Part shown: positions 5,701-64,000 of the stretch, in pieces
Layout: each line of letters begins with the position of its first letter
How positions within the stretch are numbered: position 1 is the first letter of the stretch
DNA from: Limnomonas spitsbergensis
Taxonomy: Eukaryota > Chlorophyta > Chlorophyceae > Chlamydomonadales
Reading direction: 5' to 3'
Assembly (NCBI GenBank): GCA_037349105.1
Contig: JAYJMM010000100.1
Location: forward strand, 1,206,001 to 1,270,000
DNA: 64,000 nt
The notes under the pieces: generated by a model
Database searches by the model: none
Told to the model about the DNA's origin: nothing
Seen by the model: only the letters and a program-made list of their open reading frames with translations
Position numbers and translations under genes: made by a program

Positions 5701-8700
5701 GGGAAGCCATCACCGGGCCGATTTGGGGCCAGGGTGCCAGACATGGACCGTCCCATGGTCGGTGGCCCATGCAGAAGGTTTTAGGGTTTAGGGTGGCTCA
5801 TACAGAAGGGTTAAGGGTTTAGGGTGGCCCATGCAGACGCGCTTGCAAGACCATGGCTGATCTGCCGTAGGCCGTGATGTAGCTTCACTGACGCCGGAGC
5901 ACTCTAAAATATGCCATGGCCTGTACCTGTATATGTCTGTGTGAGGCTCTCGATTTCATCCCCGCCCCTCGGCCCCTCGGCCCCTCGGCCCCTCGGCCCC
6001 TCGGCCCCTCGGCCCCTCGGCCCCTCGGCCCCTCGGCCCCTCGGCCCCTCGGCCCCTCGGCCCCTCGGCCCCTCGGCCCCTCGGCCCCTCGGCCCCTCGG
6101 CCCCTCGGCCCCTCGGCCCCTCGGCCCCTCGGCCCCTCGGCCCCTCGGCCCCTCGGCCCCTCGGCCCCTCGGCCCCTCGGCCCCTCGGCCCCTCGGCCCC
6201 TCGGCCCCTCGGCCCCTCGGCCCCTCGGCCCCTCGGCCCCTCGGCCCCTCCGCCCCTCGGCCCCTCCGCCCCTCTGCCCCTCCGCCCCTCTGCCCCTCCG
6301 CCCCTCTGCCCCTCCGCCCCTCCGCCCCTCTGCCCCTCTGCCCCTCTGCCCCTCTGCCCCGTCACACCCTCGCCTGTGCGCAGGGCGCATTGCTGGTTTC
6401 GGGGCCATCTGCGCAGCACCCAGTGCAGCTCCTCTATGCCTTATCAATTGCGTCCGAGCAGTGGGAGGACCTTGGTGTCCCCCTGCACCTTGCCCCTCTC
6501 TGCTGCCCCCCCTCTCCTGTGTGCAGTGCGCTCTAGAGGTTCCGGGGCTATCTGCGCAGCACTCAGTGCAGCTCCTCTTTGCCCAATCAATTGCGTCCGA
6601 GCAGTGGGAGGACCTTGGTGTCCCCCAGAGTCTTACCCCTCTCTGCTCCCCCCCCTCTCCTGTGTGCAGCGCGCTCTCGTGGTTCCGGGGCTATCTGCGC
6701 AGCACCCAGTGCAGCTCCTCTGCATCTCATGGGTTGTGCCGGAGCACCTACGTGGCCCCATGACCCGCTCTGTCCCTTCCTCATCTGCCCACAAGGCGCT
6801 CTGCTTGTTAAGGGCCATCTGCTTAGCACCCGGTTGAAGCTCGTCCTCGCTTCATGGACTGTGCCCGAGCACCTGGGTGGCCCACTGAGTCCTACCCCTC
6901 TCTGCCCCCCCTCAGTCCTGCCCCTCTCTGTCCCCCCCCTCAGTCCTGCCCCTCTCTGTCCCCCTCAGTCCTGCCTTTCTCTGCCCCCCACCTCAGTCCT
7001 GCCCCTCTCTGCCCCCCTCAGTCCTGCCTTTCTCTGCCCCCCCTCAGTCCTGCCTTTCTCTGCCCCCCCCCCCCAGTCCTGCCCCGCTTTGCCCCCCTCA
7101 GTCCTGCCCCTCTCTGCCCCCCCTCAGTCCTGCCCCTCTATGCCCCCCTCAGTCCTGCCCATCTCTTACCCCCCCCGAGTCCTGCCTTTCTCTGCCCCCC
7201 CCCCCCAGTCCTGCCCCTCTCTGCCCCCCCCTCAGTCCTGCCCCTCTCTGCCCCCCCCTCAGTCCTGCCTTTCTCTGCCCCCCCCTCAGTCCTGCCCCTC
7301 TCTGCCCCCTGCTCAGTCCTGCCCCTCTCTGCACCTCCCTCACCTATCCACCAGGCCGCTCTGCTCGTTCCAAAGCCCCCTGGCCCCCCGGTGGCCCTAC
7401 TCTTCCCTCGCGTCCCATTGTCGACTGCTCTGGAGCACCCATGCGGCCCGCTGCCGCCTCCACACGCCCTCTTCCCCACCCTCCAGCAACATCCGAGGGC
7501 CCAGGTCAGCGGCAACAACAACAACAACAACGGCAACAATAGCAACACCAATGATGACCTGGCACGGTCATGGCTGCAGTCGACGCTGTCGCCGGTGCCG
7601 GAGGATAGCCTGGGACCCTTGTTGCCCGGGGAGGGCATGCCCCTGCTGCCGGCTGCCGGAGATACCATGGGCCTGCCGCCCCTCATTCCCATGCCGCAGC
7701 AGGCGCAGCAGCAGCAGGCGCAGCCGCAGGGCAGCTTCTTTCAAATGTTGGGCCTGGAGGCGCAGGGCGACGCCTCGGGCAGCATCTACAGGTACTGCTG
7801 CTTGGGACACCGCAGCTTCACACCATTCACACATCCACTTCACACCGTCCACACCACTGTTTCAGCCATTCACACCATAGCTGCACATCATCCTCACCTC
7901 CGTTTACACTATTCACACCACTGTTTCACACCATTCACACCACAGCTTCACCCCGCTGGTAATTGTCGCCTCTCTCTCCCCATTCTCTCCTTCACCTCGT
8001 ATATCACCTCTTCTCCCCCCTCCTCCTCTCCCACGCTGCGTTTACTGGCGCAGACGTACGCGCGCCCAGGTGTCTCTGCAAGAAATGAGCATGGAAGAGC
8101 TGGAAACCCTAAGCCCTAAACCCTTAACCCTGCGTGCACTGCCACAGACGTACGCGCGCCCAGGTGTCTCTTCGAGAAATGAGCATGGAAGAGCTGGAAA
8201 CCCTAAACCCTAAACCCTTAACCCTGCGTGCACTGCCACAGACGTACGCGCGCCCAGGTGACTCTTCGAGAAATGAGCATGGAAGAGCTGGAAACCCTAA
8301 ACCCTAAACCCTTAACCCTGCGTGCACTGCCACAGACGTACGCGCGCCCAGGTGTCTCTGCAAGAAATGAGCATGGAAGAGCTGGAAACCCTAAACCCTA
8401 AACCCTTAACCCTGCGTGCACTGCCACAGACGTACGCGCGCCCAGGTGACTCTTCGAGAAATGAGCATGGAAGAGCTGGGTACCCTAAACCCTTAACCCT
8501 TAACCCTGCGTGCACTGCCACAGACGTACGCGCGCCCAGGTGTCTCTGCGAGACATGAGCATGGAGGAGCTGGAAACTGCGCTCTGTGAGGAGGTAGGGC
8601 TCTGGATTTGGGGATTCAGGGTTCAGCGTTTATGTGTAGGGATGCAGTTTAGGAGGAGGTGGACACAAAGTGTGTAGGTCATGGGTTTAACAACGGGTAC

Positions 8701-11700
8701 TGCATGGAGGAGCTGAAAATAGTGCTCTGTCAACAGGTAGGGTTCGGGATTTGGGGATTCAGGGTTCAGCGTTTTGATGAGGGATCTTCTTCAGGAGGGG
8801 GAGGATACAAAGGCGGTGGTTTCAACAATGCGTACCGCATAGTGGAGCTGGAAGCAGTGCTCTGTCAACAGGTAGGGTCCAGGATTTGGGGATTCAGGGT
8901 TCAGCGTTTTTGTGTAGGGATTAAGTTCAGGAGGAGGTGGGGCACATAGTGTGCAGGTCATGGCTTTCACAACGATGCCGCATAGAGGAGCTGGAAGCCA
9001 CGCTCATCAAGGAGGTAGGTTTCTGGATTTGGGGATTTAGGGTTCAGCGTTTCGTTTATGGATCTCCTTTAAGAGGAGGTGGCCAAAAAGTGTGTAGGTT
9101 GAGGGTTTAAGAACGGCACCGCGTGGAAAACCTGGAAATAGCGCTCTGTGAGGAGATTGGGTTTTGGATTTCGGGATTCAGGGTTCAGTTTTCTTGCTTT
9201 TATAGGGATCTACTTCTGGGTAGGTGGACAACACAAATGTGTGTTCAGGTTCAAAAACACCGCGCTCTTTGATAACGTAGGGTTCTGGATTCGGGGTTCA
9301 GTGTTTTAAATTCCACCCTAGGAAGTTGCTTCGGGGGAGGCGCACTAAAAGTGTGAAGGTTTAGGTTTTAAGGAATAACCGTGCGGAGGAGGTGGGTATA
9401 TACGGGCTTTGCCGTTGAACGCGTGCAATGCAAAGGCCTTTTAGTACAGGCCTCCCAGCTGTCTAATTTAGGGTTTAGCTAAAATATTTGGCTAAAACCT
9501 TCTGCTGCAACCTAGTTCATGGCCTGAACGCAGGGCTTGTGGCTGCATAGCCTGTTTCTTGATGGGTTTAGGGTTAAGGCTTTGGCTGCACTGCCTGTTT
9601 TGAATGGGTTTAGGGTTCAGGGTTGTGACCGTACTGCCTATTTTTATGGCCTTGCTGTCCCATGCCCCCCCCGCATGCTGCCCTCCCCCACCCCCTCAAT
9701 AAAGAAATAAACGATACGCCCCTATCTATCCTTGCTGCTGTGTCACTGCGGCTGACTCCCCCTCTGCACCCCCCCCCCTCTCCGGCTCTGACAGCTCGTG
9801 GAAGGAGAGGTGGAGGCGGCCGAGGAGGAGGGCCTGTGGGAGGAGTTTTTGCAGGTGAGGTCAAGGTGGGGAGGGGCTGTATGATGTGTACTAATGTATG
9901 CGACCTTTGATTCCTGCCTCCATTTCCCTGCCCCCCCCCTATGGGGTGTGTGGGAGGGGAGGCGGCCTTTTATTTCTGCCCCCGCCCCCCACAGGTGCAC
10001 TGAGAGCTGGGAGGGTCTGCAATGCGTGCCCATAATGGTTGATGCTGCATCCAGGGGAGGGCAGGCCCTGCTCACGGGGCCTTGGACAGCGTCTGTGACG
10101 TCCATCAACGTCTTTGAAACCAACCGACGCCTCCTCCCTTTTTGATTCAGGGTATCTTTTTCTTGTCGAGGTGGCCTTGCACCCAAGGTATGAACAACCT
10201 GTTCCCCCCCCCCCCCCCCCCTTCTCTCCCTACATTCCATTGCCCCCCTCTTATCCCCCCTCCCCCCCCTCCTGTTTCAGGAACTCAAGGTATGAACAAC
10301 CTGTTCCCAACCCCTATCACCCTCCTAACTACATTCCGGGGACTTGAAGAGAATGGCAAGGTGGCTTTGCATCCAAGGCCGGTCTGAACAGCCTCTTTCC
10401 AACCACAACCACCCCTCTTTCCAACAGAAAAGCCCCTTTCCAACCACTATCACCCCTCTTTCCAACCACAAGCACCCCTCTTTCCAACAGAAAAGCCCCT
10501 ATCCAACCACTATCACCCCTCTGTCCAACAGAACAACCTCTTTCCGACCTTTGCCAACCTAAACCCCAACCCTCAGCCTTATATTATAAACCCTAACCCT
10601 AACCCCAACCCCAACCCCTTTCTTCCAGGGTCTAGTTGAGAATGGCGAGGAGACGCTGCTCCCCGAGGACGACGAGTCGGATGCCGAGTACGACGAAGCA
10701 GCCTTGATGGCGGAGCTGGATGCCGAGGACGGTGCCGCCTCTGCTGGGGAGGAGGACGGGACGGTGGAGGCGACCGGGGGGGCGGGGGAGGCGGCGCGAG
10801 GGGGCGACGACGGGGGAGGGACGCCGGGATGGGGAGAGGTGAGAGAGGGGAGGGGTGAAAGTAGCTAGGCGGCGTTGGGGTCGAGATGAGTGGGGTGGGG
10901 GCAGGAGGGGGTGCGGGCAATGAAGGGGAAGAAAGGGGTGAGAGGGGTGCTCTAGGCAGGGCAGGCGGAGGGACAACGGGGCGAGGGGAGGTGATTGGGG
11001 AGGAGGCGGCGCGAGAGGGTGGGGGCGATGATGGGGAAGGGACGCCGGTATGTGGCGAGGTGGCAGTGTGGTGGTGGTGGTGTGATCCCGTGATGGGTAT
11101 TAATTGGTGTAGGAGTGAGTGGGGAGGTGCCGGGAGGGGGTTGGGGGCGATGATGGGGGAGGGACGCCGGTATGTAGCGAGGTGGCAGTGTGGTGGTGGT
11201 GGTGTGATCCCGTGATGGGTGTTAATTGGTGTAGGAGTGAGTGGGGAGGTGCCGGGGGGGTTGGGGGCGATGATGGGGAAGGGACGCCGGTATGGGGCGA
11301 GGCGGGAGTGGGGCGAGGTGGGAGTGGGGCGGTGGTGGTGTGATCGCGTTTGGGTTGAAGGGCGCTAGGCGGTGTAGGTGTGAGTGGGGAGGTAGCGGGA
11401 GGGGTTAGGGGCGATGAATGGGAAGGGGGAGTCAAGGGACGCCGGGATTGTGCGAGGTGAGAGTGGGGCGGTGGCGTGGCTGCATGAGGGGTGCTAGGTA
11501 GGGTTCTACTTATCCCCGTCTGGACCCTCTGCTCAGGCCCCCTCCCTGACTGGGCGCATGATTTGTTGGCTAGCAGGTGAGTGTACTCATTTGTTTCTCA
11601 CCTCTCTGATCTGGCCTCCGGCCGACGTCAGCGAGGGGGCCGATGGGTGACACGAGCAGCTGAGCCGAGGCGGTGGCAAGGAGGAGATGTGCTCGCCAGG

Positions 11701-14700
11701 GCGCACGATTTCTTTGCCAACCGTAACTGGCGAAGTTGTTAATGTTTCACACCCTTTGGTCAGGCCTCCGGCCGACGTCAGCGTGGGGGCCGACGGGTGA
11801 CACGGGCAGCTGAGCGGAGGCGGCAAGAGACGGAGGCGCTGGCCAGCGTGCGGCTGCGCCCGACGTCGCCCGTTGCCGCCGCGGAGCCGGGCGGGAGCGC
11901 GGCCGAGGGGGCGGGTCATCGGGTCAGCGGCGGCGGCAGCCGTTGGCGGGACGCGGAGGCGGAGGAGCGGCCACCCGGCCTGCCCCCCCAGCAGCTGCAG
12001 CAGCTGTATGAGCAGGTAGGTGGGTTTCAAATAGCTTTTTTTTCTTCTGTGTGAGATAGGCCACTTTCGGCACGGCCACCGCCAGGCTGACTGGGTGCTG
12101 AACCTTGAGCAGCTTTCAAGGCCCTTGAGCCCTTTCACGGCCCGGAGTCTCAGCAGCTGCAGCAGCTGTATGAGCAGGTGAGCTGTTTCGGAGATCTTGT
12201 TTTTTTCTTTTGTGCGAGATAGGCCACTTTCGGCATGGCCACCGCCGGGCTGACCGGGTGCTGAACATTGAGCAGCTTTCACGGCATTTGAGCCCTTTCA
12301 CGGCCCGGAGTCTCAGAAGCTGCAGCAGCTGTAAGAGGAGGTAGGTGGGTTTCGGAGAGCTTAGTTTCTTCTTGTGCAAGCTAGGCCACCTTTGGCAGCT
12401 TAAGGGCTCCAGACCTTGATCGACCACTTGGCCTGAACCCTTCCGCAGCAGCAGCAGCTGTACGAGGTGGTAGGTGGCGGAGCGCTTGCTTTTTTGTCTT
12501 GTGTGTTCTTGCTCACCTTTGGCACCGCCACCGCTGGGCTGACCGGGTGCAAAACCTTGATCAACCACCTGGCCTGGACCCCCAGCAGCTGCAGCATCAG
12601 CTGTACAAGCTGGTAGGTGGCGGAGCGCTTGTTTTTCTTCTTTGTGTGTGCTAGGCCACCTTTGGCACCGCACCCGCTGGGCTGACTGGGTGCAAAACCT
12701 TGATCAACCACCCGGCCTGGAACCCCATCAGCTGTACTAGGTGATTGGTGGCGGAGCGCTTGCTTTTCTTCCTCGTGTGTGCTAGGCCACCTTTGGCACC
12801 GCACCCGCTGGGCTGACTGGGTGCAAAACCTTGATCGACCACCCGGCCTGGAACCCCAGCAGCTGCAGCATCAGCTGTACAAGCTGGTAGGTGGCGGAGC
12901 GCTTGTTTTTCTTCTTTGTGTGTGCTAGGCCACCTTTGGCACCGCACCCGCTGGGCTGACTGGGTGCAAAACCTTGATCAACCACCCGGCCTGGAACCCT
13001 TTAGCAGCTGCAGCAGCTGTCTGAGCTGGGTCGTCCTATGATTAGCCTAAACCCAAAACCCATTGCTGCCCCGGAAGGGTGATCTTCCTGGAACCTGAGG
13101 AAGAACCCTGATGTGCTGTCCGTGCCTATTTGCATAGAGCATGGCATCTACGGTTTTGATACGCCTGGCTTTGCCCCAGCTTGAACTCTAAATCCCGGAC
13201 CCTACCATAATGAAAAGGCAGATTGGTCTCAAAATCCTGTACCGCTTTAAGACGGTGCTGTTTAAAAAAGTAATCTGGATTTTCAACCAAAACCAGACCT
13301 CCCCTCCCCTCCCCTCCCCCTCCTCCTAGCCCTACTTAAAACCACTGATACTAATACCCCCCCCCTTGACCTAAGCCACCCCCTTCCATGTCTAGGATTC
13401 ACCGCATACCCTGCCCTCACCCCTTCCCCTAGCTCCCCTCCTTTTACTAAACCCTAAACTCTTAAACCCTAAACCCTAAACCCTCACCCCCTGCCTCTCC
13501 CCCCCCCCCTCTCCCCCTTGCATCGCCCCCTCAGGTTTACCTCCATGCCCAGCTCGTGGCCCAGCTGTACGCAATGACGGCCAAGGACCCCTGCCCACAG
13601 GCGGTGCGAGTGGCCAAGAATGTGAGGTGGAGGGTTGAAGGCTGCGCAGGCTGTCTGGGTGGGAGCACACCGGGCCTGCAAAGGGCAGCATTTAAATATG
13701 TATATTTATTATGAATACCGTACAATAAATAAATGTATGGTGTACAATGTACTTATAATAAATAAATTCATACAATAACCGGGGGCAGTCAGTTTAAATC
13801 CAAGGGGCAGGCAACGGAATAATGAAATGAATTTAAGCAAACCAAATAAAAATAAAAAGTCATAGGTACCTACCTGAAAGGTAAGATAACTTCCTGGTAC
13901 AATTTTTTTCGATTGCTTTCGCACACCCCTCACCCTACAAAAAAGAATTTCGCACATCCGCGCTGTCTTTTATTTGATCACGCAGGCTTGTCAAAAATAA
14001 AAACAAACCTCGCATTGCTGAAATCCGCCACGCCGCAGCGTCAAAAGCCCGGTTGTTGGAGGATTTTCTTTTAACCCCAGCCCGCCAAATTACCACGAAA
14101 CGTTCTGAAATTGTGAAATTGCGCACAAACAGCCTGCGCTTACCTTTCCATCACTACTGTAGATTTGCTTTGCCTTCCCTCATAATTAACGTTGTTTGGG
14201 GTTGAGTGATCCATGGATTTATTAACAATCAATTGTCGACGCCAGTTTTCAGTCGGAATTTTTAGTTGTTGTCGATAATTTGCCCTGAAGGCAGAGCATT
14301 AAGAGAAGTAATATTTTGATGCCCGAGGGAAGGCAAATCTGCGCGGTGATGTGTGGTGCTTGGTATATCCACACTGATCCACACTGATCCACACTGATCA
14401 AACCCCTCCAACCCCAGGCACGTCAGATGCTACTGACGCTGGGTCAGGCCGGCTGGGAGGCGCGCCAGCGCGCCGAGGCTGCAAGCATGCCCGCCTTCAA
14501 CCCGGAGCAGCTGGGCATGCCCCTGGCAGGCCCCGTGGCTCTGGATACCGAGCACACCGGCGGTCTCGACGACGGGCATGCCGCCGCGACACAGGCCCAG
14601 AACCAGCTGGCACTGCTTATGGCCATGCCGGGCGGCGACGGCCCGCTGGGGCCAGTCAACGGGGGCGACACCAGGCCGCTCGCGGGCGGGGAGGAGACCG

Positions 14701-17700
14701 AGGCGGGGAACCCCGGCTGCGGGTTGTGGGCGCCGACGTATCTGGCCGACGTTCGGTAAGTGTCGGGAGCGGGTGGGTGGAGGGTGCACGCCAGCCCACC
14801 TTTTTGGTGGGCTGTAGACTGTGGGCGCTGACGTACCTGGCTGATATCCGGTGAGTGCAGGGCGCGGGTGAGTGGAGGGTGCACGCCCGCCCACCTTTTT
14901 GGTGGGCTGTAGACTGTGGGCGCTGAAGCACCTGCCTGATGTCCGGTGAGCTGCCGGGAACGGGTGGGTGGAGGGTGCACGCCAGCCCACCTTTTTGGTG
15001 GGCTGTAGACTGTGGGCACTGACGCACCTGGCTGATGTCTGGTGAGCTGCCGGGAGCGGGTGGGTGGAGGATGCACGCCAGTCCACCTTTTTGGTGGGCT
15101 GACGGCTGAGGGATGTCGATGCCGACGGACGGTGAGTGGGAGTAACGGGTTGGTGGACAGTGAACGCCACAACGTTTGTGTTCAGTTGTAGGGTGAGGGC
15201 TGTGGCGCCGGCATACCTGGCAGGTGTCCGGTGAGCGTGGGGGGTGGGGGGGTAGACTGTACGCAATGCTGCTTCATGTCTCGTGACCCCTTTCAAGAGT
15301 ATGCTACATATGAAGGCCTGTCTGAACCATCCTTCATGCCCATGCATGTCTCTTTACGTCCCTTGATCCACCAGGAGTTTGCAATTAAGAACTACGTGTG
15401 GTTTCCAATCCTTCGTGATGTTTGACGGATCCCTGGGTATAGACGATGAGACCTGCCTGTACGGGATACGCGCATTCTTCCCCGTGTCATTGCAAGTGTG
15501 GATCAATCACATGACGGTACCTCAGTAAAATTGTGCGGTTTCCCTCACGACCAGCTACAGCGTTTCACGTTGAGAGGTTTTATCAATCGTCCGGAGTTTG
15601 CCACTTATTATGGCATGTCTGCACTAGCGATGATGTCCCTCATGTCCTGTGACACCCCCACCAGGAGTACGTTACATATCATGGCATATCTGGACTAGCG
15701 ATGATGTCCCTTATGTCCTGTGACACCCCCACCAGGAGTACGTTACATATCATGGCATATCTGCACTAGCGATGATGTCCCTCATGTCCTGTGACACCCC
15801 CACCAGGAGTACGTTACATATCATGGCATATCTGGACTAGCGATGATGTTCCTCATGTCCTGTGACACCCCCACCAGGAGTACGTTACATATCATGGCAT
15901 ATCTGAACCATCCTTAAGGCCCTGTCACCCCCCTATCGGAGTGTGTGTGCTAAGTACTAAAAAGCGTACCAGTGTGTGAACCATGGTCAATGCTTCCTTA
16001 ATGACAATCCTGTGACGACAATGACTACTTTCAACATATCTGATCATGTTGGTCCTGCCCACTAGAGGACTGGCCTCAAAGCCAGCCGGGAGCGCACTGA
16101 AGGGCAAAGTGAGGGACTAGGCTATCCCTTCAACCCCTCCAGGAGCAATGCGACATGCTTAAAAGCATACCAGTGTGTGAAAAGCATACGGTACCCGAAC
16201 CATTATGTCCCCTTCTTGTCCCATGACCACCCTCCAGGAACATGCTTACCTATCATACCACATCTTCACCATCCTGAATGTTTTCCTGTTTTTCATGTTC
16301 TACGTCCCTCTCCAGGAGTGTGTTGGATGTGGCGCCCCTGCGTCCTTGCCCTTTTCATGTCCTGCGTTCTGTGTCCTTGTCCTTTTTAATGTCCTGCGTC
16401 CTTTTTCATGTCCTGCGTTCTGCGTCCTCGTCCTTTTTCATGTCCTGCGTTCTGCGTCCTCGTCCTTTTTCATGTCCTGCGTTCTGTGTCCTTGTCCTTT
16501 TTCATGTCCTGCGTTCTGTGTCCTTGTCCTTTTTCATGTCCTGTGTTCTGTGTCCTTGTCCTTTTTCATGTCCTGCGTTCTGTGTCCTTGTCCTGTGTTC
16601 TGTGTCTTTGTCCTTTTTCATGTCCTTTTTCATGTCCTGCGTCCTTTTTCATGTCCTGCATCCTTTTTCATGTCCTTGTCCTTTTTCATGTCCTGCGTCC
16701 TGCGTCCCCCTCCAGGAGTGTGTTGGATGTGGCGCCCCTGCGTGTGCTGCCGGCCTTCTTTGCAGTGATGCATGCCCTGCCAACAATCCCGCTGGAGGAC
16801 TCGCCCATGCAGGTAGGCGCCTTATGAGGACTAGCCCATGCAGGTAGGCGCCTTATGAGGACTAGCCTATGCAGGTAGGCGCCTTATGAGGACTAGCCTA
16901 TGCAGGTAGGCACCTTATGAGGACTAGCCTATGCAGGTAGGCGCCTTATGAGGACTAGCCTATGCAGGTAGGCGCCTTACGAGGTTTCGTCCATGCAGGT
17001 ACCCACGGCCGTCAGAGGCCTGATTGGGAACAAACCTGCATCGGCCTACGGCCGGCAGCCCAAGCAGCATTGATGGCCACACCTGGGACCTGTGCCGTGA
17101 AGCCGGGTTGTAGCTGATGTGTAGCTGAGCCACGAAAAACATAACTGATGACCATGCAGGTAGGTGCCTCAACCCGGCATGCCCATGTGGAGGTAGTTTG
17201 ATTTTCTCTGGAGGGGGGACGGAGCGGGGCTTGCAGGAGCCCCTTCCCCCCCTCCCTCGACCCTGTTAAGGCTGTGATGTAGCTGAATTGTGACTGAATT
17301 GTAGCTGAAGGGTGCTTTAGTAAACACTGCCTCATGAGTCTACGGTCACAACGACTCATGCGTATATAGTTAGATTCAGGTGTGAAAAAAGAACTGATAC
17401 CCCACCTCGGCACCCCTTTGGCCTAAGCACACTACCACCAGAATCGCACCCAAGAGCGGCTGCAAAGTGCAAACGTCTCCACCAGAACCGATTAAACGGC
17501 ACCCCAACCTGCAGAAGGAGACGAGAGCTGACAGGAAGCCAGTAAAGAAGCTATGTGGACGCAAAGAGGGCAGCGGGTTTAGGTTACAGGTTAAGGGCAA
17601 AACCCTAAACCCTACACCTAACCCTGCCTGGACACTTAAGAGGCAGCTGGTTTAGGTTGAAGGTTTAGGGTGAAACCCTTAATTTTAACCCTGCCTGGAC

Positions 17701-20700
17701 ACAACGAGTGCTGCGGGTAAAATATTACCCGAAGGCATGGCCACCATTATAGCTTAGCGGACGTTTTTTTCCACACGAACAGCCACACCCGTCACACTCC
17801 TTTCCACACCTTCAAATGTGTTACACTGTACATTTTTGCGCCTCACTTTTCTTGACGTACGGCCTGCGACAGGAGCTGATCGGTAACCGCCACACTCTTG
17901 TCCACACCCTCCAATGTGCGACCCTGTACATTTTGTTGTCCCCTCACCTTTCTTGACTCATGGAACGTGACAGGAGCTGATTGATATGGAGGCCACCAAT
18001 GCCATCGAACGGAAGAAGGCGCGCAAGCGGACCAAGGCGGGTCCCCATGCAGAGCGCGCGACCGAGTGGGCAGGCCCGGCCCTGGCTGTGATTAAGGTGC
18101 GTGGGAGGGCAGGCCCAAAAAACAGTTCAGTGGGCAGGCCCGGCAAAAAGTTAGGAGGGCAGGCCCAGCAAACAGCCGGGAGGGCAGACCCGACGCAATG
18201 TGGGAAGATTGGCTGGTTGGGAGGGCAGGCCCGTCACTGCCCTGAGGCCCCTTGTGTCCTCTACCCGCTTGTTCTCACTATTTCCAGGTTATGTTTCTTA
18301 CTGAAGTTCCCCTTAACGTACGTTGGGGCAGTTGGCCCTGCTATCCTCATCGAGGTCCCCCGCCAACCGCCTAACCGCCTGCCCAGCTGCCAGAAACGGA
18401 TCCCCTGCCCGCAAATTGCACGGGTGGCAGGTCTAACAAAAAAACGCCTACAACCACCTAACCCCAACCCATCTTACCGTCTAACCGCTTACCCAGCTGC
18501 ACACCTTTGCCTTCATTCTACACAGGCATTGCGCATTGAACCCCAAACTGCCTATTTGCCCACCCATCTAACCGACTAACCGCCTCTCCAGCTTCAAACC
18601 CATCCCCTGCCTGCCTTCTGCACTGGCCTGGCAGATGTCAATCCGCAAACAACCACCTAACTGACTACAACCACCTAATTCACCCCCAACCACTGACCCC
18701 ACCCTCTTAGCCCACCCACTAACCCACCCTCTCCACCCACCCACCCACATCAGCCCTACCTGAACCCCGGGGTGGAGTACCGCCCCGCAGCCCGCGTACC
18801 GCACAACTACTGGTCGCCTGGGGAGGATGAGCTGCTGGCACTGGGTGAGCGCACTGCGAGGAGAGGGATCTCAGATCTGGATCCAGAATAGATCTTGGAT
18901 CTATGTGTGGGACGATGAGCTCGTACCACTGTGTGAATGTGTTGTGGGGAGAAGAATATCCGATCCGGATCCAAAAGCGGATCTTGGATCAAGGTGAAGG
19001 AGGGTGAGATGCTGACACTGCGTGTGCACACTGGGGAGGGGAATTCAAATCCGGATCAAAAGGCGGATCCGGATCTAAGGACGGATCCAGATCCAAAAGC
19101 AGATCTCAAATCCAGGCATGAGAGGATGAGCTGCTGGCACTGGGTGAGCGAACCGTGTGGATAGGGATGTCAGATCCGGATCCAAAAGTGTATATTTGAT
19201 CCAGGTGCGGGAGGACAGGCTTCTGGTGTTGGGTGAGTGTCTTGTGGGGATGAGGATATCAGATCCGGATCCAAAAGTGGATCTTGAATCCAGATGTGGG
19301 AGAGTGAGCTGCTGTCGCTGGGTGAGCGCGCAAGTGTGATATCATACTATTTGTGGCAGGCCCAAAGCTGGTAGCTCACTTAGTGCTACGGCCGTACGGG
19401 TGGCTTCCTTAATCCATGCCTCAGGGCGTATTGTTAATTTATTTATTCGTGGCAGGCCCATGGTCAGCCGCCACTATAGGTCGCCTGGAGAGGATGTGCT
19501 GCTGGAGTCTAGATCCACTAGCAGACATTGGATCTAGGTGTGGGAGGATACCCTGCTGGCGCTGGGTGAGTGCGCATCGGTCTACCTTCGGCAGGCCCAT
19601 GGTCAACCGCCACTAGGTCACATGGAGAGGATGTGCTGCTGGTGTGCTGGTACTAGGCAAGCGCATTGCGGGGAGGATTGTACGAGATCTATATCCACAA
19701 GCTGATCTTGGATTTAGGTGGGGGAGGGATGATCTGCGGGCGCTGGGTGATGACACAGTGGGGAGAGGGGTATCAGATCTAGATCCACTAGCGGATCTTG
19801 GATTCAGGTATGGGAGGAGAACCTGCTTGTGCTGGGTGAGTGCGCAAGAGTGACATTGGTCACTCTTGCGCACTCACCAGCTGACCATGGGTCTACCTCG
19901 GCAGGCCCATGGTCATCTGCCACTAGTTCATCTGAGAGGATGCGCTGCTTGAACTGGGCAAGCGTATCGCGGGGAGGGTAGTATCAGATCTAGATCCATG
20001 GACGGATTTTGGATTTAGGTGGGGAGAATGCGCTGCCGGCACTAGGCGACCGTTTGCGGGGACGGGGGGAACCAGATCTGGAATCCAAGAGCGGATATTG
20101 GATCCAGGTGAACGCGGATCCGCTGCTGGTACTAAGCCAGAGTGCTGAGCTATTTACTTTAGTTCGCACCAGATCCTCTCCGCTCCCCTCCCCCTCCTGT
20201 GACCCGCTCCCGGCACATCTGCCACTTGTCGGTCAGACTGTGGGTCCATTTGCGTTCAGGCTCCTAGGCCTCATCCCCCGCCTCGTGCTACTTGCTGCTA
20301 TGGTACCGTACCTTGTGGTATGTCCGACAGAGTGACTCCCCTAATCCACGACAGGGTTTTTTATCTGGGTTTTTCATTTATTTTATTATCTATCTGAGGG
20401 GGGTTTATTTATTTATTGAGGCTCTTTATTTCTTTGCGAGGGCGTTTGATCGGCGTTTATGTACTCATTTATGTGCACGCTGCTGCGCAGGTATTCGCAG
20501 GTTTGGTACCAACTACGCCCAGCTTCAGGAGGCCTACTTTCCCACCCGCACCGAGCAGCAGGTGGATGGGTAACCGGAGGGTCAGTTGGACCAGTTTATC
20601 TAAGGGTGCTTCGTCAAAAGTGCCGACATGTAATAGCTTGTGGTCCAGGTTGGAAGCCGGATGCAGGTAGCCCTGTCACTCGGGGCTCCACACGCATTGA

Positions 20701-31680: not shown

Positions 31681-31687
31681 AGGTGTA

Positions 31688-38605: not shown

Positions 38606-38689
38606 GCAAGCTTGAGTGCATCGAGCTCTTGAGGCAGAGTCATGGCCTGAGGAGACTGTTGGCCCTCACCTACCACATCATCGTGGATG

Positions 38690-52921: not shown

Positions 52922-53172
52922 GTTCCACGCAGCTTATAAAGTCCCGAGGCGTTTGAAAACCAACACTCGTCGGTTTTTGAACGTTGTGAAGCTGCTCTGA
53001 AACCAAGTACTTATTGCTACTGCTTCTTCTCTCGATGCTCAGACCACTTCACTCACCCATCCGCAATATCACTGTTCACTTGACAAACTCATTCTTTCTG
53101 AAGGCAGAATTCGTCTCGTGGAAGGGCAGGGCAGGAGGGCTTTCAGAGCGAGGACCTTGTAGCTTCCGCATC
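52922..53172. promoter_or_regulatory. Divergent intergenic promoter region
   Basis: About 250 bp separate the start codons of the minus-strand TQT gene (52921) and the plus-strand TIM14 gene (53173). A TATAAA on the plus strand at 52935-52940 could serve TIM14, leaving a 5' leader of about 200 nt. It is too close to the TQT start to serve that gene unless translation starts further in. Confidence 0.35.
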
Positions 53173-56100
53173 ATGGCAAGTGCCGATGTCATATGCGCAA
53201 ATGCCTTCAGAGTTTCTGGTGATTATCTTGTTCCTCCATGCGCACTCCAGGCCACACCCTTGATGGCCGGCCTGGCCATCGCCGGCACGGCCTTCATGGC
53301 CAAGCAAGCCGTCACAACGTACATTAAGCTCACCGCTAGCGGCTCTATCTTCAGTGCGACAAAAGCATTTTACAAGGTGCGAGCGGCGAGCGCCTACCCT
53401 CGCTCTGCGGACGGCTGCCAACTAGCCACCACACACGACCCGGCGGGTTCTCCCGTGGGCCCGATTCATGGCTACAGTTTCTCATTCCTTACCGTTCGCA
53501 ATGCCCAGCCTTGTTTTAAACGGCTACACAATGGATGCGTTGTCATTTTTTTCACACCCGTGACATGACAGTCGCCCGCTCCCATGCAAAGCGGGCGACA
53601 ATCATGACATGGGAGAGCTGCTGGCGCTCCAGCTGCTTGGTAATCAGCAGGAGGACAACGCTGTTTGAAAGCACGAGGGCTGGGGTCTAAGGACTGTATG
53701 CTTCATGCCCTCACATCCCTCTGCCACAACAGCAGTCTCTTGTAGTAGATCCAGAACAGGATTTATATGCCCCATCCTGAACCTGAAGTACCATGTCTGC
53801 CATCATGGCAACATGCAAGGAGCCCACTCCTATTCATGGGCCTGTGGCTGGCTGGCTGCAGTCAGGCATGGCAGAGCAACCATGCGTAAAATTGCTTGGG
53901 GGTGATGAAAAAGCATGAGAACCCATGGGGATCCAAGCAGTCCATGGTTTACTGATGTATGCTGATGGCGTGTGACTGAGAAGGCCGTACAAATAAAGAA
54001 AGAAAGCTACGCCCGGTGGGGGGCGTGAGAGATAAGGAAACAGCGCAGCCTGGGCCGAAGCCACATCCGCGCCGTTACCGTGAGATAAGGCTGTATCTAG
54101 AAGGGTTTAGGGTTTAGGTGTGGCATTACCGTGAGATAAGGCTGTATCTAGAAAGGTTTAGGGTTTAGGTGTGGCATTACCTTGAGATAAGGCTGTATCT
54201 AGAAGGGTTTAGGTGTGGCATTACCGTGAGATAAGGCTGTATCTGGTAGGGTTTAAGGGTTAAGGGTTTAAGTGTGGCATTACCGTGAGATAAGGCTGTA
54301 TTTAGAACGTGCATGACCCGTAGCTGAAGCAGCCCCCTTATAGAAAGCTTGGACAGAGGGCATCACATGATTGGTTCCTAGAGCCGTCTCCTAGGTGAGA
54401 AGCTTTCACGATGGGCTTCACATGACAGGTAGCTGCAATAGCCTCTGGTTCCGGAGCATGGAAAATCCTCCTGATCCCAGCCATGCAGCTGGTTTTGACT
54501 CATACAGTTATGCGGGCATGAGAAGAGGTTTCCGAGGGACCTTCCTATACATAACACATTAGGACTCGTCCGTGTCTCCGTGATAGCATGCAGACGCTAT
54601 CATGGGCTAGTCCTGAATTTCTGCCATGCAGATCGGCATGGGCAGCTAAGTCTACTGTCAGGGTCTACTCAAGGGTGCGAGACAAAGCAGAGCGGCTGTA
54701 TCCCCCCTGCCTGTGCGCCCCCGAGCTACCCCAATCAACTTGAATAAACGCTCCATGGACTGGTCGTGAATCTTTATCATACAGATTGGCACGGGCGGCT
54801 ATCATTGCTGACTGACTGGCTCAAGGGTGTGAGACAAAGCAGAGCGGCTGTTTCACCCACTGCCCGGGCGACCCCAAGCTACCCGTATCAACTTGAATCC
54901 ACGCTCCATTGCCACCCCTATTCACTCCGCTCATTTCTCTTCTCTTCACCCCACACCCACCCACCCACCCCCTGAGCATGCCTTCATAGGCCTCCTGAAA
55001 CCACCAGGTCCATCTCCGATACCCTGCTGCCCTGCCCGGCCACCCGCTGCTTCCCACCTGCTGTTTGTCGCTGGCTAGGCGGTTTCAGCCTGAAATGTAC
55101 TGACATGTGGCAGGTCTGATCCTCCCTTCTCCCCTGCTTGTTACGCACCTGCTGTTCTGTTGAACTTATGTTGACACCCAGCCGCTGCTTGTCGCTAGCA
55201 GGGTGCTTTCTAACCCTTGATGAATCGAATCAAGGCGGATCTGATCCCCTTTGCTCTCTAGGGGGCCACCCACCTGCTGATGTCCCCATATGCTGTTTGT
55301 ACCCACCTGCTTTTTGTCCACCTTATGTTTGCCCCCTGAAGGCGGTTTCCAACCAAAATGAATCGACATGAGGCAGCCCTGACCCCCTTGGCTCTTATGC
55401 GCGTCACCTAACTGCCGCTCGTCCCAACTGCTGTTTGTACCCACCTGCTGTTTTTCAACATATGTTTGCCCCCTGAAGGCGGTTTCCAACCAAGATGAAT
55501 CACCATGAGGCAGCCCTGACCCCCTTGGCTCTTATGCGCGTCACCTAACTGCCGCTCGTCCCAACTGCTGTTTGTACCCACCTGCTGTTTTTCAACTTGT
55601 GTTTGCCCCCTGAAGGCGGTTCACAGCCAAGATGAATCGACGTGAGGCAGCCCTGACCCCCTTGGCTCTTATGCGCGTCACCTAACTGCCGCCTGTCCCA
55701 ACTGCTGTTTGTACCCAACTGCTGCTTCTAGCCTCTATTTGCCTCCTGCCGGACGGGGTCCAGCCCGAGATGAACTGGCGTGAGACGGGCCCGATTTCCT
55801 GTCCGAGATCAATAGACGCAAGGCAGCCCTGATCCCCTTTGCTCCCTTCCCCAACTGACGCTCATCCCAACTGCTATTTGTACTCAACTGCTGTTTTTTC
55901 AAAAATTTGTTTGTACCCTGCAGGTCGGTCTCCGGCCTGAGATGAATCGACGAGAGGCAGCCCTGATCCCTTTTGCTGCCCTGAGCGCCAACCAACTGCG
56001 GCTCATCCCAACTGTTGTTTGTACACGCCTGCTGTTTTTCAACCTCTCATTCCCTCTTGCAGGGCGGTTTCCAGCCCGAGATGAATCGACGAGAGGCAGC

Positions 56101-57292
56101 CCTAATCTTAGGCCTCAGAGAGACTGCGGCAGAGGAGAGAATCAAGGAGGCGCACAGAAGGATCATGGTGGCTAATCACCCAGACTCAGGTGAGGCAGTT
56201 CCCCCCCCTGTGTCTCAGCTACATTTGAGTTACTTGGGCCTTCGGGGGCTGCGGGATGGCCTTGCCCAGTTGGCATTGCTGACAAGAAATAAAACTGGGT
56301 AGGCCTTGGGAGGGGGCGTGAAGGGCTGCATGAGCTGCATGAGTGTTGAGGGCAGGGGGAGGTGGTATTTGTGATGAGGCACGATATGGCGCGACACTGC
56401 ATGATATGGACAGGCTAGCCAGGTTGTCCAACCAAGGTAGCATGGACTGCACAGGTTCAGCCGAAATGTACTGTGAAGGTAACACAAAACGGCACGCTAC
56501 GCTGAAGGCTAAGCCGGAATGTACAGCCAAAGTAACACGATACTGCACGTTACGACAAGGGTTTTGTGGATATCCGCCTGACCGTAGGAGACAGCAGCAA
56601 CCTTCAACCTAACAGATGTAGCAGACGTAGCATATTTGGGGAGCGTGTCTTGAGCCTGAGAGGATATGCACCGCATGCTCTGTCGGTGGCAGCCGTGAAG
56701 TGAGTAAGCAATGCAGTAGGTATAAAAGAGCTCAATTTGGGCCCCAGATGGAAACGCGTCTTTAAAGACACAGATGGCGTTCCGCCTCTACCTTCTGGTA
56801 CCCAAATGGACCTCTTGGATGAACGTGTCGCCTGAAGCCTGAGGCATGCACTGTGCATGCTTCATGTGTGTGCCTACTCATAGGTGGCAGCAGCCCCCTT
56901 CAGCTTGAAAGATGTAGCAGATGTACCAGGCTAAGAAGTGTGTCTCTAGCCTGAGATATGCACTACTTGCCCAGTCGGTAGCAACCGTGCAAGCAAACTT
57001 GCAGATCTCAACGGTATGGGAATGTGCCGATAGCCCAAGGGATGCCTTTGCATGCCTCTACGTCTGCCCGTTGGCAGGCAATGATGTCAGCAATGTTGTG
57101 GATCTGGAAGATCCGGAGTGGTAGATCTGGCAGATCCAAAATATATCTGGGAAGTGACTACCTAGCCTGAGCCGTGCCCCGCCTCCTCCATCCGTTTGCC
57201 TGCTGACAGGTGGCAGCAGCTTCATCGCGGCAAAGGTGAACGAGGCCAAGGACATCCTTCTAGGGAAGAAGAAGCCGGGCAGCATGATGTGA
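53173..57292 (+). CDS. TIM14: TIM14/PAM18, J-protein of the mitochondrial import motor
   Basis: Exons 53173-53376, 56063-56189 and 57210-57292 give 137 residues with matching phases (0 and 1). One transmembrane helix (about 29-51, [20 protein letters not shown]) is followed by [20 protein letters not shown] and a J-domain with the HPD motif at 107-109 ([10 protein letters not shown]), ending [12 protein letters not shown]. This is the usual TIM14 layout and length. In mitochondria it stimulates mtHsp70 at the TIM23 channel, in complex with PAM16. Canonical homologues start near MATPL; here 26 residues precede ATPL. An alternative GC-AG intron (ATG at 53173, then gcaagt, to 'ctccag' at 53250) would produce MATPL directly. 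The two visible introns contain arrays of degenerate acceptor copies of exons 2 and 3. Confidence 0.92.
54080..54310. repeat. About 62-bp minisatellite in TIM14 intron 1
   Basis: Four units of 'ttaccgtgagataaggctgt' plus 'atctagaagggtttagggtt' and 'taggtgtggca'. Confidence 0.9.
55080..56062 (+). repeat. Acceptor-side array upstream of TIM14 exon 2 (about 7 units)
   Basis: Units of about 130-145 bp repeat the exon 2 start: 'ggcggtttccaaccaaaatg' or 'aatcgacatgaggcagccct'. Units lie near 55081, 55199, 55341, 55481, 55611, 55751 and 55921, before the used copy at 56063. Each includes an upstream pyrimidine-rich 'ctgctgtttttcaac'. The 55921 copy keeps 'ctgcag' and nearly all of the first 50 exon bases. 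Confidence 0.9.
56370..56560. repeat. Dispersed 'agccgaaatgtac...gtaacac' tandem family, locus 3
   Basis: Units 'ttcagccgaaatgtactgtg' then 'aaggtaacacaaaacggcac', in TIM14 intron 2. Same family as 39960 and 52015. Confidence 0.6.
56640..57209 (+). repeat. Acceptor-side decayed array upstream of TIM14 exon 3
   Basis: Copies of the exon 3 acceptor region, 'caggtggcagcagcttc', are visible near 56683 ('gtcggtggcagccgtg'), 56880 ('cataggtggcagcagccc'), 56975 ('gtcggtagcaaccgtg') and 57070. They share 'agcctgag' and 'atgcac' words. Confidence 0.7.
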
Positions 57293-58640: not shown

Positions 58641-59195
58641 CGTGCTGATGTGCTGCTTCTTGGGAAGCTCCTTGCCCACCCACCCCCTTCAACTCCTCAG
58701 CGCTAATGGCATATCTCGGCATATCTGCCTCCGTCAGCTCCTGACCAGGGTGGGCTGACTCCATGTGATCTAGATAGTATTAACTCCACACATAAGGGCG
58801 GATGGTACCCGCGATGCTCCTGCAGATGGTGCAAGCCACTGGTCTGTTGGTGCAAGGATTGGTGGCAGAACCCCTCTCAGCAGCCGCATACGACATCTTG
58901 TACTCAAGAGGCAGCGTGACTCGACTGCTAGCGTGCTGCTGGTTGAGCCTTTGCCCAAGTCCATTTTGCAAAGGCCTGATGTCCAGTCGTCACACACAAT
59001 GCCACAGAAGCCGCATACCTCAGCACCACTTGGCTCCAAGCTACAGGCTGCTGCACATTGGCGCAGCAAGATGTGCACTCCGACGTGCAACCGCATAGCT
59101 GAAGGCTTGGCTATCTTCCCACAGCCATGCACCTTGCACACTGTCAGCGTATCCCCGGCTACTGGTGGTCCATATTCTTGTTGAACATCCTCCAA
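58640..59195 (-). pseudogene. Broken zinc-finger gene, mobile-DNA type
   Basis: The minus-strand frame 59195-58770 has CKVHGCGKIAKPSAMRLHVG with VHILL and then VCGFCGIVCDDW. After a frameshift a second frame continues NPCTNRPVACTIC and PYVWS, and after an in-frame stop the tail reads YLDHMESAHPGQELTEADMP with ISAEEL. This order (Cys/His box, 'MR-HVG-HIL', CGFCG, SPCTN-P-CP-C, H-x-H box) matches multicopy zinc-finger proteins common in fungal and algal repeat DNA. One frameshift and at least one stop make it a pseudogene. Function of the family is not known to me. Confidence 0.6.
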
Positions 59196-59199
59196 CTCT

Positions 59200-60620: not shown

Positions 60621-60623
60621 CCG

Positions 60624-63433
60624 ATGTCTGGCGTCAAGGGTCCACCGTCGCCAACGTACCTCAATGATACGGGGGGCTCGGATGATCGCTACGGGGCCAT
60701 CTACGCTGCTGCGTCAGCAGCAGGAGGTGCACTTTCTCAACAGCAACAGCAGCAGCAGTACCAGCAGCAGCAGTACCAGCAGCAGCAACATCAACAGCAG
60801 CAGTATCAGCAGCAGCAGTACCAGCAGCAACAGTATGGACAACAGAATGGAGCTTACAGCCAAGAGGATGAGCTTCGCCACCAGGTATCCCCGGGCAACA
60901 TGCGTTGCAGGCATGGGCCGCTTAGGCTGCATCGGCAGAAAGGGTCGCATGGGCCGCTTGAGCCGCAAACCCATGCACGCGACCACGCTGTGCATGCCAC
61001 GCATGGCACTTCACCTTACTGTACCTGACTCTGCGGAAATAGTCCGGTCCATGCAGGAGATAGACGGTGGCTTGTCTTTCTGCCGACCAGCGGGGGCCAT
61101 GCATGGGATCTGCACCTGCAAACCAGTTCAGGTTCAAACGGGACTAAAGGAGAAAACAAGCAGCCTTGACCAGCCAAAATCTTACGAGCTTAAAAAGCCG
61201 CTGTATCCAAGGAGGGCAGCGGGCAGGAACTTCCAAGAGTATTTCCCGAAAATGCAGAGCGGTGCGGACCGGAAGGTCATGCATGCGAGGGCAGTGAGGG
61301 GCATGAAGGCACATCATGCGCATTTCTCCCAAACTGTTCAACCAGCGCTTAAAAGCAAGAGGCAAGCAGGCACCCCATACCAGCACAGGTCCTTCTCCTC
61401 AACTCCTGCAGGAGGGCTAGTGAGCATAGGGGCAAGCCAATTAGCCAACACTGCATGTAAGCACAAGTCCTTCTCCTCAACTCCTGAATGAGCGTGTGTG
61501 AGCACCTCCACCCCCCCATACCCTTATCTCATCTTCAGAACTCACCCCTCACCTCCTCACTCCCCCTGACTCAAGCTTCACCATCCCCCCCCCTCACCCA
61601 GCCCTCCCCCCTTCCCCCCTCACCCCTCACCCCTTGTGTCCACCAACAGCAACGCATGGTGTCCTCTCCGCCCCCGCACCCCCTCATCGTTCACCCACCT
61701 TGTGTCTGCTCTACAGCAACAGATACCGTCCACCCCTCACTACCTTACCTTCCCACCCTTCACCCTTCACCCCCCTCACCCCTCACACCCCACTCCTGGT
61801 GTCCGCCCTGCAGCAATACATGGCGTCCACCCCCCTCACCCCCCCCCCCCCCCCCCCCTCACCCTTCACCCCCCCTCCCCATTCCTCACCCCCCACCCCT
61901 AAACCCTACAGCAACATATGGCGTTTCCCCCCTCACCCTTCACCCCTCCCCATTCCCTACCCCTCACCCCTCACCCCTGCAGCAACAGATGTCCCCTCCC
62001 CCCTAACCCCCCAACCGTCACCCTTCACCCCCCTCCCCCCCTCCCCCCTCCCCCCTCCCCCTCACCCTTCACCTCTCCCCCTCCCCACCCCTCACCTCTC
62101 ACCCCTCACCCCCTCCCCATTCCCCACCCCTCACCTCTCGCCCCTCACCCCCTCCCCATTCCCCACCCCTCACCTCTCACCCCTCACCCCTCACCCCCTC
62201 CCCATTCCCCACCCCTCACCCCTCACCCTCACCCCTCACCCCTTCAGCAACAGATGGCGTCCACCCCTGTGGGCAAGTTCCTGATTGACCTGGACTGCAC
62301 CGACTATGTCGAGGCGATCTGCGTACAGCTGCGTATTCATGAGGTGGGTTTAGTTTAAACTCTAAACCCTTAACCCCCTGCGTACAGCTGCGTATTCATG
62401 AGGTGGGTTTAGTTTAAACCCTAAACCCTAAACCCTATGCATACAGCTGCGTATTCATGAGGTGGGTTTAGTTGAAACCCTAAACCCTCCGCGTACAGCT
62501 GCGCATTCATGAGGTGGGTGCGGGCATCAGGACACTTCCTTGCAGTCTAGTGACGGAATGAGTTCTTGACATTTGTGAGTCGTCCTGTTTCGTGGGAGTC
62601 CGGGTTTTGTGAGGTTGAGGGTTTTGTGAGTTATAAGGTTATATGGGCTCTAGGATTGTTTAAGGGGTTCAAAGCTTTCGTTTTTTGTGGCTTTTATGGG
62701 TTATAACTTTCAAGGTTTGGTGGGTTCTAGAGTTTTGTGGGTTTTGTAGGCCATTCCCATGATCTAGGTCTGTGTGAACGGTTATTGCACGCCCTGCTTT
62801 GATTCTCGAAACAAGGGCCGGCACGCTCTCCCGCATCCGCCGGAATCGAAACCCTGAACCCCAAACCCTAAACTCTGAACCCCAAACCCTAAACCCTTGA
62901 CCTTGGACCCTACACATAATGCTGCTTCCGTTAGAAACAAACCATGACATTAGTACACGGCGTGCTTGACTGCTTGCTAATAAGCCGGTCCTTCCCTTAT
63001 TTTGGCTCTTCTTTTAGCCCCTCCCATCTCTTGGCCCTTTCCTACCCATGGATCTTCCCTTCCCTAACCATGGCCCTTTCCCCATTTGGCTTCATAGAAG
63101 GAGGCAGTTTGTGCAGTGCATCAGGTTCTGCCCTAGCCCCCCTTGCTGCTTTTGGCACTCGCTGCATCACCAATCGTCACTCTTATCACACCGTGTCACT
63201 GCTCTCGTCACACTGTGTCACCACCCTTATAACACTGCATCACCCCTCTTGTAACACTGTGTCATCGTTCTCATCACACTTTGCCACCTCTCCCACACTA
63301 TTCACACCCACAGGTGAAAGAGCTGCACCTCCTGACCCCGGACGAGGTGCGGGCTGTCCAGCAGCAGGCAGCCGGCGGGGCCCAGTGGCAGTGGCGCAAA
63401 ATCGAGGAGCACCTGGCCAAGGATAAGATGTGA
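60624..63433 (+). CDS. Polyglutamine-containing protein, three exons
   Basis: Exons 60624-60884, 62248-62343 and 63314-63433, all phase 0, GT-AG. Starts MSGVKGPPSPTYLNDTGG, then YGAIYAAASAAGGALS, a Q4Y-type glutamine tract (about 39-72) and SQEDELRHQ. Exon 2 reads QQMASTPVGKFLIDLDCTDY with VEAICVQLRIHE. Exon 3 reads VKELHLLTPDEVRAVQQQ and WRKIEEHLAKDKM-stop. About 158 residues. The final ATG-TGA overlaps a GT-donor-like 'gtgagg' that is repeated downstream, so the gene may continue beyond the window with a splice at 63428/63429. The family is not recognised. The (CAG/CAA) tract reads glutamine only in this frame. Confidence 0.55.
61640..62247 (+). repeat. Acceptor-side array upstream of polyQ gene exon 2
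   Basis: Copies of 'cagcaacagatggcgtcc' (acceptor plus exon 2 start) near 61648, 61713, 61811, 61911 and 61980 precede the used one at 62247. They are separated by C-rich 'cccctcacc' tracts that act as polypyrimidine runs. Long P/S/H frames are artefacts. Confidence 0.85.
62344..62520 (+). repeat. Donor-side array downstream of polyQ gene exon 2
   Basis: Three units of about 65 bp: 'gcgtacagctgcgtattcat' then GAG and gtgggt, each ending in telomere-like 'aaaccctaaacc'. This is an exact copy of the exon 2 end plus donor. Confidence 0.9.
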
Positions 63434-64000
63434 GGGCCTGAGGGGGCATGCAGCTAGGGTTGAGGGTGGAGGGCTCAGTGGCAGTGGCGCAAGATTGAGG
63501 AGAATTTATCTAAGGATAAGATGTGAGGGGCTGGCAGCTAGGGTTGAGCGCTAGGGGTGGAGGGTGGAGGCCTCAGTGGCAGTGGCGCGAAATCTAAGAG
63601 CACCTGGCCAAGGACCAGATGTGAGGGGACAGGTATCTAGGGTCGAGGGTGGAGGTTTGAGGGTGAAGCACTTAGTGGCATTGGCAAACATCGAGGAGCA
63701 CTTGGCCAAGACCAGATGTGAGGGTGCAGGCATCTAGGATCGAGGGCTGAGGTTTGAGGGTGGAGCGCTTAGTGGCATTAGCAAAACATCGAGGCGCACC
63801 TGGCCAAGACCAGATGTGGGGTGCAGGCATCTAGGATCGAGGGCTGAGGGCTGAGGTTTGAGGGTGGAGCACTCTGTGGCATTAGCAAAACATCGAGGCG
63901 CACCTGGCCAAGACCAGATGTGAGGGGACAGGCATCTAGGATCGAGGGCTGAGGTTTGAGGCTTGAGGGTAGAGGGCTCTGTAGCATTAGCAAAACATCG
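63434..64000 (+). repeat. Array of the polyQ gene exon 3 end
   Basis: Six to seven degenerate units repeat 'cagtggcagtggcgcaaaat' then 'cgaggagcacctggccaagg' and 'ataagatgtgagg', near 63476, 63570, 63665, 63755 and 63865, running off the window edge. All keep 'agatgtgagg'. Confidence 0.85.

Follow-up and report, generated by a model that had tools for sequence, protein, structure and literature searches.

The stretch of DNA analyzed here, 64,000 nucleotides of the green snow alga Limnomonas spitsbergensis (GCA_037349105.1, contig JAYJMM010000100.1, positions 1,206,001 to 1,270,000 of the forward strand; "the window" below), raises the question of why its introns carry tandem repeats that reproduce the splice junction of the neighboring exon. 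We find that these border copies are local and polarized far beyond chance, and we argue that they are probably products of neutral local tandem duplication with breakpoints that are blind to splice sites and that are tolerated at borders. The nuclear assembly of this species, made from PacBio long reads with Illumina polishing, comprises 260,248,090 bp in 124 contigs with a GC content of 54.15%; mean intron length is 720 to 823 bp depending on the annotation, full-length transcripts are reported, and border copies go unmentioned in the parts of the genome paper covered here (PMC11228838).

Three plus-strand genes of the window (gene A, a TIM14-like gene, and a polyQ gene) were curated by reading frame and supply 21 introns with 42 borders; together with one minus-strand border they define the scope of the window results. 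A gene finder run on the whole window merged genes and made false exons, so its window rows are not used as evidence. The exon edge and its splice site are copied into the adjacent intron at 18 of the 42 borders, with 83 copies in 15 of the 21 introns. This bears out the initial annotation, which had described, at more than 15 borders, tandem units that repeat the end of an exon and its GT donor on the downstream side, or the AG acceptor and the start of an exon on the upstream side. Its range of unit lengths, 31 to about 150 bp, is also close to what Tandem Repeats Finder (TRF) gave for arrays covering a border (31 to 163 bp).

The annotation had proposed comparing adjacent with distant exon ends, and real with shuffled junctions, genome-wide; comparisons of this kind within the sets used here gave the following. 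The 25-mers of exon edges recur in the adjacent intron at 16 of 42 borders, in the intron across the same exon at 0 of 36, and in non-adjacent introns in 2 of 760 cases, while shuffled mers matched once in 588. A 25-mer test that took the other exon edges as its reference put 17 of the 42 borders at p<0.01 within 1 kb (a few TIM14-like and polyQ borders were placed at least one base differently in this test than in the later counts). The locality and polarity are thus far beyond chance, although the outward direction of the polarity is forced, because copies past the functional site are intron by definition.

The genes and the minus-strand exon are modeled as follows.

7503..30709, plus strand: gene A, 18 exons, 5' start putative.
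7503-7791, 8524-8593, 9795-9854, 10629-10838, 11782-12015, 13535-13621, plus strand: gene A exons 1 to 6.
14418-14755, 16716-16812, 17974-18096, 18754-18844, 20491-20561, 21521-21646, plus strand: gene A exons 7 to 12.
23250-23318, 24469-24543, 25377-25690, 27668-27732, 28011-29455, 30437-30709, plus strand: gene A exons 13 to 18.
53251..57292, plus strand: TIM14-like gene, three exons modeled.
60621..63429, plus strand: polyQ gene, three exons modeled.
48029 down to 47931 (within 47931..48188), minus strand: open exon of 99 nt.

Joined in phase, the 18 gene A exons read through 1344 codons to a final stop, with no stop before it. A Myb_DNA-bind_6 match at residues 522-569 (E=4.1e-5), in a domain that crosses exons 10 to 12, marks gene A as a predicted Myb/SANT-type domain gene. 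The label "GON4L-like" is that of the initial annotation; this was the only domain found, and a single protein search with residues 320-660 gave no homologue. The TIM14-like product has a DnaJ match (E=1.4e-5) whose 25.5 bits fall under the Pfam cut-off of 27.8.

Copies at individual borders were surveyed twice, by a copy count of aligned copies and by an exon-part measurement of spacing and exon length. Each survey covers 18 window borders; the sets differ in that the exon-part measurement adds the exon-4 acceptor and is without the TIM14-like exon-3 acceptor. The polyQ exon 2 acceptor was placed one base early in both surveys and in the distance profile described below. The arrays and copies are these.

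8036..8577, plus strand: acceptor array, gene A exon 2; 94-bp unit, five copies in addition to the real border, each with 50-54 nt of exon.
8559..9290, plus strand: donor array, exon 2; spacing 121-143 bp, five copies, 18-35 nt of exon.
10839..11500, plus strand: donor copies, exon 4; 120-221 bp apart, five (copy count) or four (exon-part measurement).
11610..11781, plus strand: acceptor copy, exon 5; 150 bp off, 70 nt of exon.
11989..13030, plus strand: donor array, exon 5; spacing 129-274 bp, six copies.
14725..15240, plus strand: donor array, exon 7; 96-bp unit, four copies, 41 nt of exon.
15300..16715, plus strand: acceptor copy, exon 8; 400 bp off, 28 nt of exon.
Before exon 8, including a 71-bp array at 15606-15905, plus strand: weaker CCAGGAG-type copies, by eye only.
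16795..17000, plus strand: donor array, exon 8; 31-bp unit, 6.1 copies (TRF), 16-18 nt of exon.
17860..17973, plus strand: weak acceptor copy, exon 9; 101 bp off, 13 nt of exon.
18822..20150, plus strand: donor copies, exon 10; eight (copy count) or 11 (exon-part measurement), 22-47 nt of exon.
20541..21022, plus strand: donor array, exon 11; 146-bp unit, three copies, 20-21 nt of exon.
22660..23249, plus strand: acceptor copies, exon 13; three copies, 15-16 nt of exon.
25080..25411, plus strand: acceptor copies, exon 15; 69-78 bp apart, three (copy count) or four (exon-part measurement), 35-37 nt of exon.
25677..26901, plus strand: donor array, exon 15; unit of about 50 bp, 23 similar donor copies, 14 nt of exon.
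About 55077-56062, plus strand: acceptor copies, TIM14-like exon 2; eight (exon-part measurement; mostly 124-140 bp apart, 40-45 nt of exon) or four (copy count).
About 61640-62000, plus strand: acceptor copies, polyQ exon 2.
62319-62519, plus strand: donor array, polyQ gene; spacing 52-59 bp.
Past 63429, plus strand: donor copies, polyQ gene, by eye only.

On the minus strand, the acceptor at 48029 is copied 91 bp upstream, at 48120; 36 of 40 nucleotides are identical, and the acceptor falls within a TRF array at 48000-48188. The claim that the pattern extends over several genes on both strands therefore stands for the three curated plus-strand genes and, on the other strand, for this one acceptor. 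Outside the modeled genes, a 40-bp unit is repeated about 29 times at 43876-45045.

Array sequence is essentially confined to its own locus. For four array stretches, a genome search that skips very common words brought up no strong second locus; one of them had matches of 67-68% on contig C110. Across the 51 window arrays with a period of at least 25, only telomere-like stretches of 16-21 nt are common to different arrays, except in one neighboring pair. The telomere-like words AGGGTTT/AAACCCT are themselves abundant, occurring 129 times on both strands of the window against a mean of 10.9 for 140 permuted 7-mers, and are found in 10 of the 96 TRF rows with a period of at least 20 and in introns such as those at 8100-8510, 41769-42202, 54075-54307, and 62360-62520. 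The enrichment is weaker in the other sequence sets.

The annotation was right that decoy splice sites are left behind. Of the 58 aligned donor copies, 51 keep an intact GT, and of the 24 acceptor copies, 16 keep the AG, the latter count being lowered by the misplaced polyQ exon 2 acceptor; GC replaces GT in three of the eight exon-10 donor copies (18844-20150, copy count). Position by position, agreement with the real site is 110/117 (0.94) for GT and 44/48 (0.92) for AG, with flanks at 0.79-0.92. None of the 57 intact decoy GT donors of gene A keeps the frame without a stop (donors only), so the outermost donor would have to be used for a functional product.

How general the phenomenon is was gauged with HSP70, CCT, and SNF2-type genes and with a "random" set of four 10-kb stretches at round coordinates. 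Spliced alignment of human HSPA8 to merged loci yielded 12 HSP70-family models, of which the three poor or partial ones (C65, C120, and C104) were left out, except that the first HSP70 test kept two C104 introns. Trained on the nine others, a gene finder got 83 of 95 HSP70 introns exactly right when each group in turn was kept out of training, and among 49 CCT Pfam exon hits it covered 34 over more than 80% of their length. The fixed-threshold rates, the distance profile, and the exon-part measurement exclude HSP70 introns shorter than 200 bp, and low-complexity mers were dropped in the fixed-threshold test, which leaves 40 of the 42 window borders. Three of 16 SNF2 loci with long unbroken frames (L067, L068, and L080) were dropped except from the p<0.01 test and the repeat cover. 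The SNF2-domain matches of these loci lie in open frames of 682, 917, and 1042 amino acids, unlike the surrounding intron-rich genes, and they are possibly inserted DNA.

At a fixed threshold, copies were found at 14 of 40 window borders, 2 of 113 in HSP70 (introns of 200 bp or more), 6 of 59 in CCT, 1 of 11 in SNF2, and none of 16 in the random set. The p<0.01 test, which here uses predicted and thus less certain exon edges, gave 4/190 for HSP70, 10/105 for CCT, and 1/35 for the random set, while a looser version gave 11/57 for SNF2, some of them doubtful. In the first HSP70 test, 3 of 97 introns carried border copies at p<0.01; the median length of the 97 is 227 bp. Tandem-repeat cover is 0.289 in the window, 0.189 in SNF2, 0.105 in the random set, 0.055 in CCT, and 0.041 in HSP70; window GC is 0.49-0.68 in 2-kb bins, against 54.15% for the genome (PMC11228838), and border rates vary among the gene sets. 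Border copies are common in repeat-laden, long-intron genes. They are not found at nearly every border, as the annotation had it, either in the window or beyond it, nor is the process genome-wide in strength.

Some features of the comparison genes deserve mention. The paralogue pairs C4/C123, C36/C119, and C21/C124 (HSP70) and C39/C99 (CCT) share intron positions while the introns themselves are dissimilar, and these conserved genes look as if they came from a large duplication. The CCT genes on C39 and C99 both have border copies, at apparently the same acceptor. The HSP70 training introns favor G at acceptor position -4 (0.52) and tend to have G and then T after the AG, giving a TGCAG/GT-like context.

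Is the border itself special? Copies were found near 162 of 320 random interior points of the same window introns, compared with 17 of 42 borders (no complexity filter). In the complexity-filtered distance profile, the rate falls on the exon side from 9/39 at 15 nt to 3/39 at 25 nt and 0/29 at 50 nt; it is 14/40 (0.35) at the border, 0.36-0.53 at 25-200 nt into the intron, and 0.28-0.43 at 300-600 nt. Summed over ten depths from 25 to 600 nt, the interior gives 141/345, with no peak at the junction. Units have a median of 34.5 nt of exon (longest copy per border) and 94.5 nt between copies (36 borders), and uniform breakpoints were not rejected in the window (P=0.15). The annotation's general process that enlarges introns outward from exon borders survives in part: junction segments are copied and introns are lengthened by them. 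That the process starts from the border does not follow, given the flat profile, the near-uniform breakpoints, the forced polarity, and the behavior of short introns described below.

We therefore favor neutral local tandem duplication, an account that starts from the observed locality and polarity, single-locus arrays, near-uniform window breakpoints, a border rate no higher than that of intron interiors, and frame-breaking decoy donors of gene A. Noncoding DNA of the alga would undergo local tandem duplication in units of tens to about 160 bp. If introns were once short (about 200 to 300 bp), a unit of about 95 bp would often have spanned a border, carrying along the exon edge and the GT or AG next to it. 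These events would be tolerated, since the copy still attached to the exon body remains able to splice, with the outermost site preserving the frame and presumably being the one used in RNA, while the intron-side copies would become intron, which would force the outward polarity. Repeated rounds would yield a longer intron and a row of decoy sites; the molecular step may be replication slippage, unequal exchange, or end-joining repair. A pre-expansion intron length of 250 bp, not far from the 227 bp median of HSP70 introns, predicts 19.2 border-crossing families in the window, and 19 were observed. A shuffled-intron control produced no families in 139 non-window introns and one in 21 window introns.

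Several points weigh against this account. The short ancestral introns are an assumption. When repeats were placed at random in today's introns, TRF arrays cover 9 of 42 window borders against 2.7 expected (P=0.001), and border-crossing families number 19 of 55 in the window against 6.5, 17 of 49 in the other sets against 11.6, and 36 of 104 overall against 18.1. The first version of this null gave a larger excess (window 19 against 4.8, HSP70 8/24 against 5.3, CCT 7/13 against 2.8, SNF2 2/3 against 0.5, and random 0/9 against 0.7). Window families of high identity (at least 0.92) cross borders in 6 of 14 cases against 1.7 expected, and exon parts are marginally shorter than uniform over the 36 borders of all sets (P=0.048). 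Among 38 paired paralogue introns, five have border copies in one member only (score 11), and their length gains of +329, +90, -1, +271, and -46 show no clear gain.

The excess of border-crossing arrays and families would be expected if junctions were hot spots of tandem duplication, for instance through transcription-linked R-loops or breaks, with arrays that start at splice sites and grow into introns. A survey of Chlamydomonas and Volvox that found more tandem repeats near intron-exon junctions points the same way, in the parts covered (PMC3887541). Still, we consider this border-anchored mutation unlikely. The distance profile lacks a peak at the border, and window breakpoints are close to uniform. 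Outside the window, the border-crossing excess grows with intron length and is absent below 300 bp (3/8 against 3.4 expected, a class of eight families only; 9/19 against 5.5 at 300-600 bp; 5/22 against 2.7 at 600 bp or more), and high-identity families there show no excess either (1/8 against 2.1). Furthermore, the exon halves of border-crossing duplicates, being conserved, should stay recognizable longer than intron copies, and this slower decay would alone inflate detection of such duplicates. A border-anchored process is thus not needed, although a modest preference could be present; with length and identity classes this small, a true preference of twofold or so may exist.

Selection that retains border copies, with spare splice sites aiding or regulating splicing, is a good deal less probable. 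The agreement of GT and AG with the real sites nominally exceeds that of the flanks, as given above, but the difference is small. Whole dinucleotides are lost in several copies, including the three exon-10 copies with GC, and the AG count includes the border set one base early. None of the 57 gene A decoy donors would give an open frame, and the conserved HSP70 genes have few border copies (2/113).

The annotation had also mentioned tandem duplication as a proposed route to new introns. In the model of Rogers, introns are born by tandem duplication of AGGT proto-splice sites, and the units here are indeed tandem and carry splice motifs, but we regard this origin as very improbable and rejected it: donor and acceptor contexts of the same window intron agree at 5.14 of 21 positions against 5.32 for mismatched pairs, with similar values in HSP70, CCT, and SNF2, and the intron positions of HSP70 paralogues coincide whether or not border copies are present. 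Least probable of all is that junctions received insertions of a mobile satellite or of introner-like elements, an idea that the telomere-like AGGGTTT motifs shared by some units might suggest but that is largely refuted, as the units contain the local exon edge, the four array stretches lack a strong second locus (within the limits of that search), the 51 arrays share only short telomere-like stretches, bar the one neighboring pair, and related copies at many genomic places were not found.

Neutral tandem duplication at borders has a close counterpart in the sequence or exon stuttering of chicken dot chromosomes (Genome Biol Evol 2026, PMC12954441). According to the parts of that report covered here, exon copies are 20-187 bp long (median 36) and number 1-44 (median 4), in 190 of 5,572 annotated dot-chromosome introns; its authors describe it in birds, refer to gerbil genes without showing the data, and offer repair under replication stress as a speculative cause. 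In both systems introns are filled with local tandem repeats, imperfect and with units of tens to hundreds of base pairs, and pieces of the exon edge with the splice site are copied into adjacent introns. The alga shows the same local units (31-163 bp at borders; window cover 0.289), the same restriction to proximal introns (16/42 against 2/760), and the same inclusion of the splice site at the exon border (14/40 there, falling to 0/29 at 50 nt into the exon). The median exon copy of 34.5 (longest per border) agrees with 36 in chicken, as do copy numbers of 1-23 and 1-44. The systems differ in that ours is a green alga with copies in 15 of 21 introns of a selected window, as opposed to 190 of 5,572; within-species length variation is a known feature in chicken, while the alga is represented by one assembly. 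Stuttering in chicken is also concentrated on chromosomes rich in GC and repeats; for the alga, the corresponding observations are the window GC and the set-to-set border rates given above. On this analogy, the algal border copies would best be filed as sequence or exon stuttering. That junctions are instead true duplication hot spots, perhaps through transcription- or splicing-linked breaks, that seed intron growth and act independently in birds and green algae also seems unlikely.

Other known systems overlap in part. The Chlamydomonas and Volvox survey, also of green algae, found the highest repeat density in introns and more repeats toward intron ends, and units containing the exon edge itself are not shown in the parts of it covered here (PMC3887541). 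Human segmental duplications contain internal tandem repeats at exon-intron boundaries, likewise minisatellite units, with alternative splicing, novel introns, and intron elongation, but at few loci and in recent primate paralogues, as far as the covered parts go (PMC2812944). In the intron gain of potato RdRp, considered alongside the Rogers model, the covered account has the duplicated stretch cross the intron-exon boundary as here (PMC4974935), whereas in the alga existing introns grow and no new intron is shown. In a literature search, no earlier account of introns with copied borders came up for any green alga, although this does not prove that there is none.

The 2026 report introduced exon stuttering as a novel form of instability of chicken dot chromosomes, and gerbil genes are the other case named in the parts covered (PMC12954441). 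Dense cases in a green alga suggest that stuttering arises generally as a by-product when introns free of constraint undergo local tandem duplication; they also give a testable neutral account of exon-edge copying. In addition, introns with up to 24 similar competing donors constitute a natural experiment on how the spliceosome chooses the exon-proximal site.

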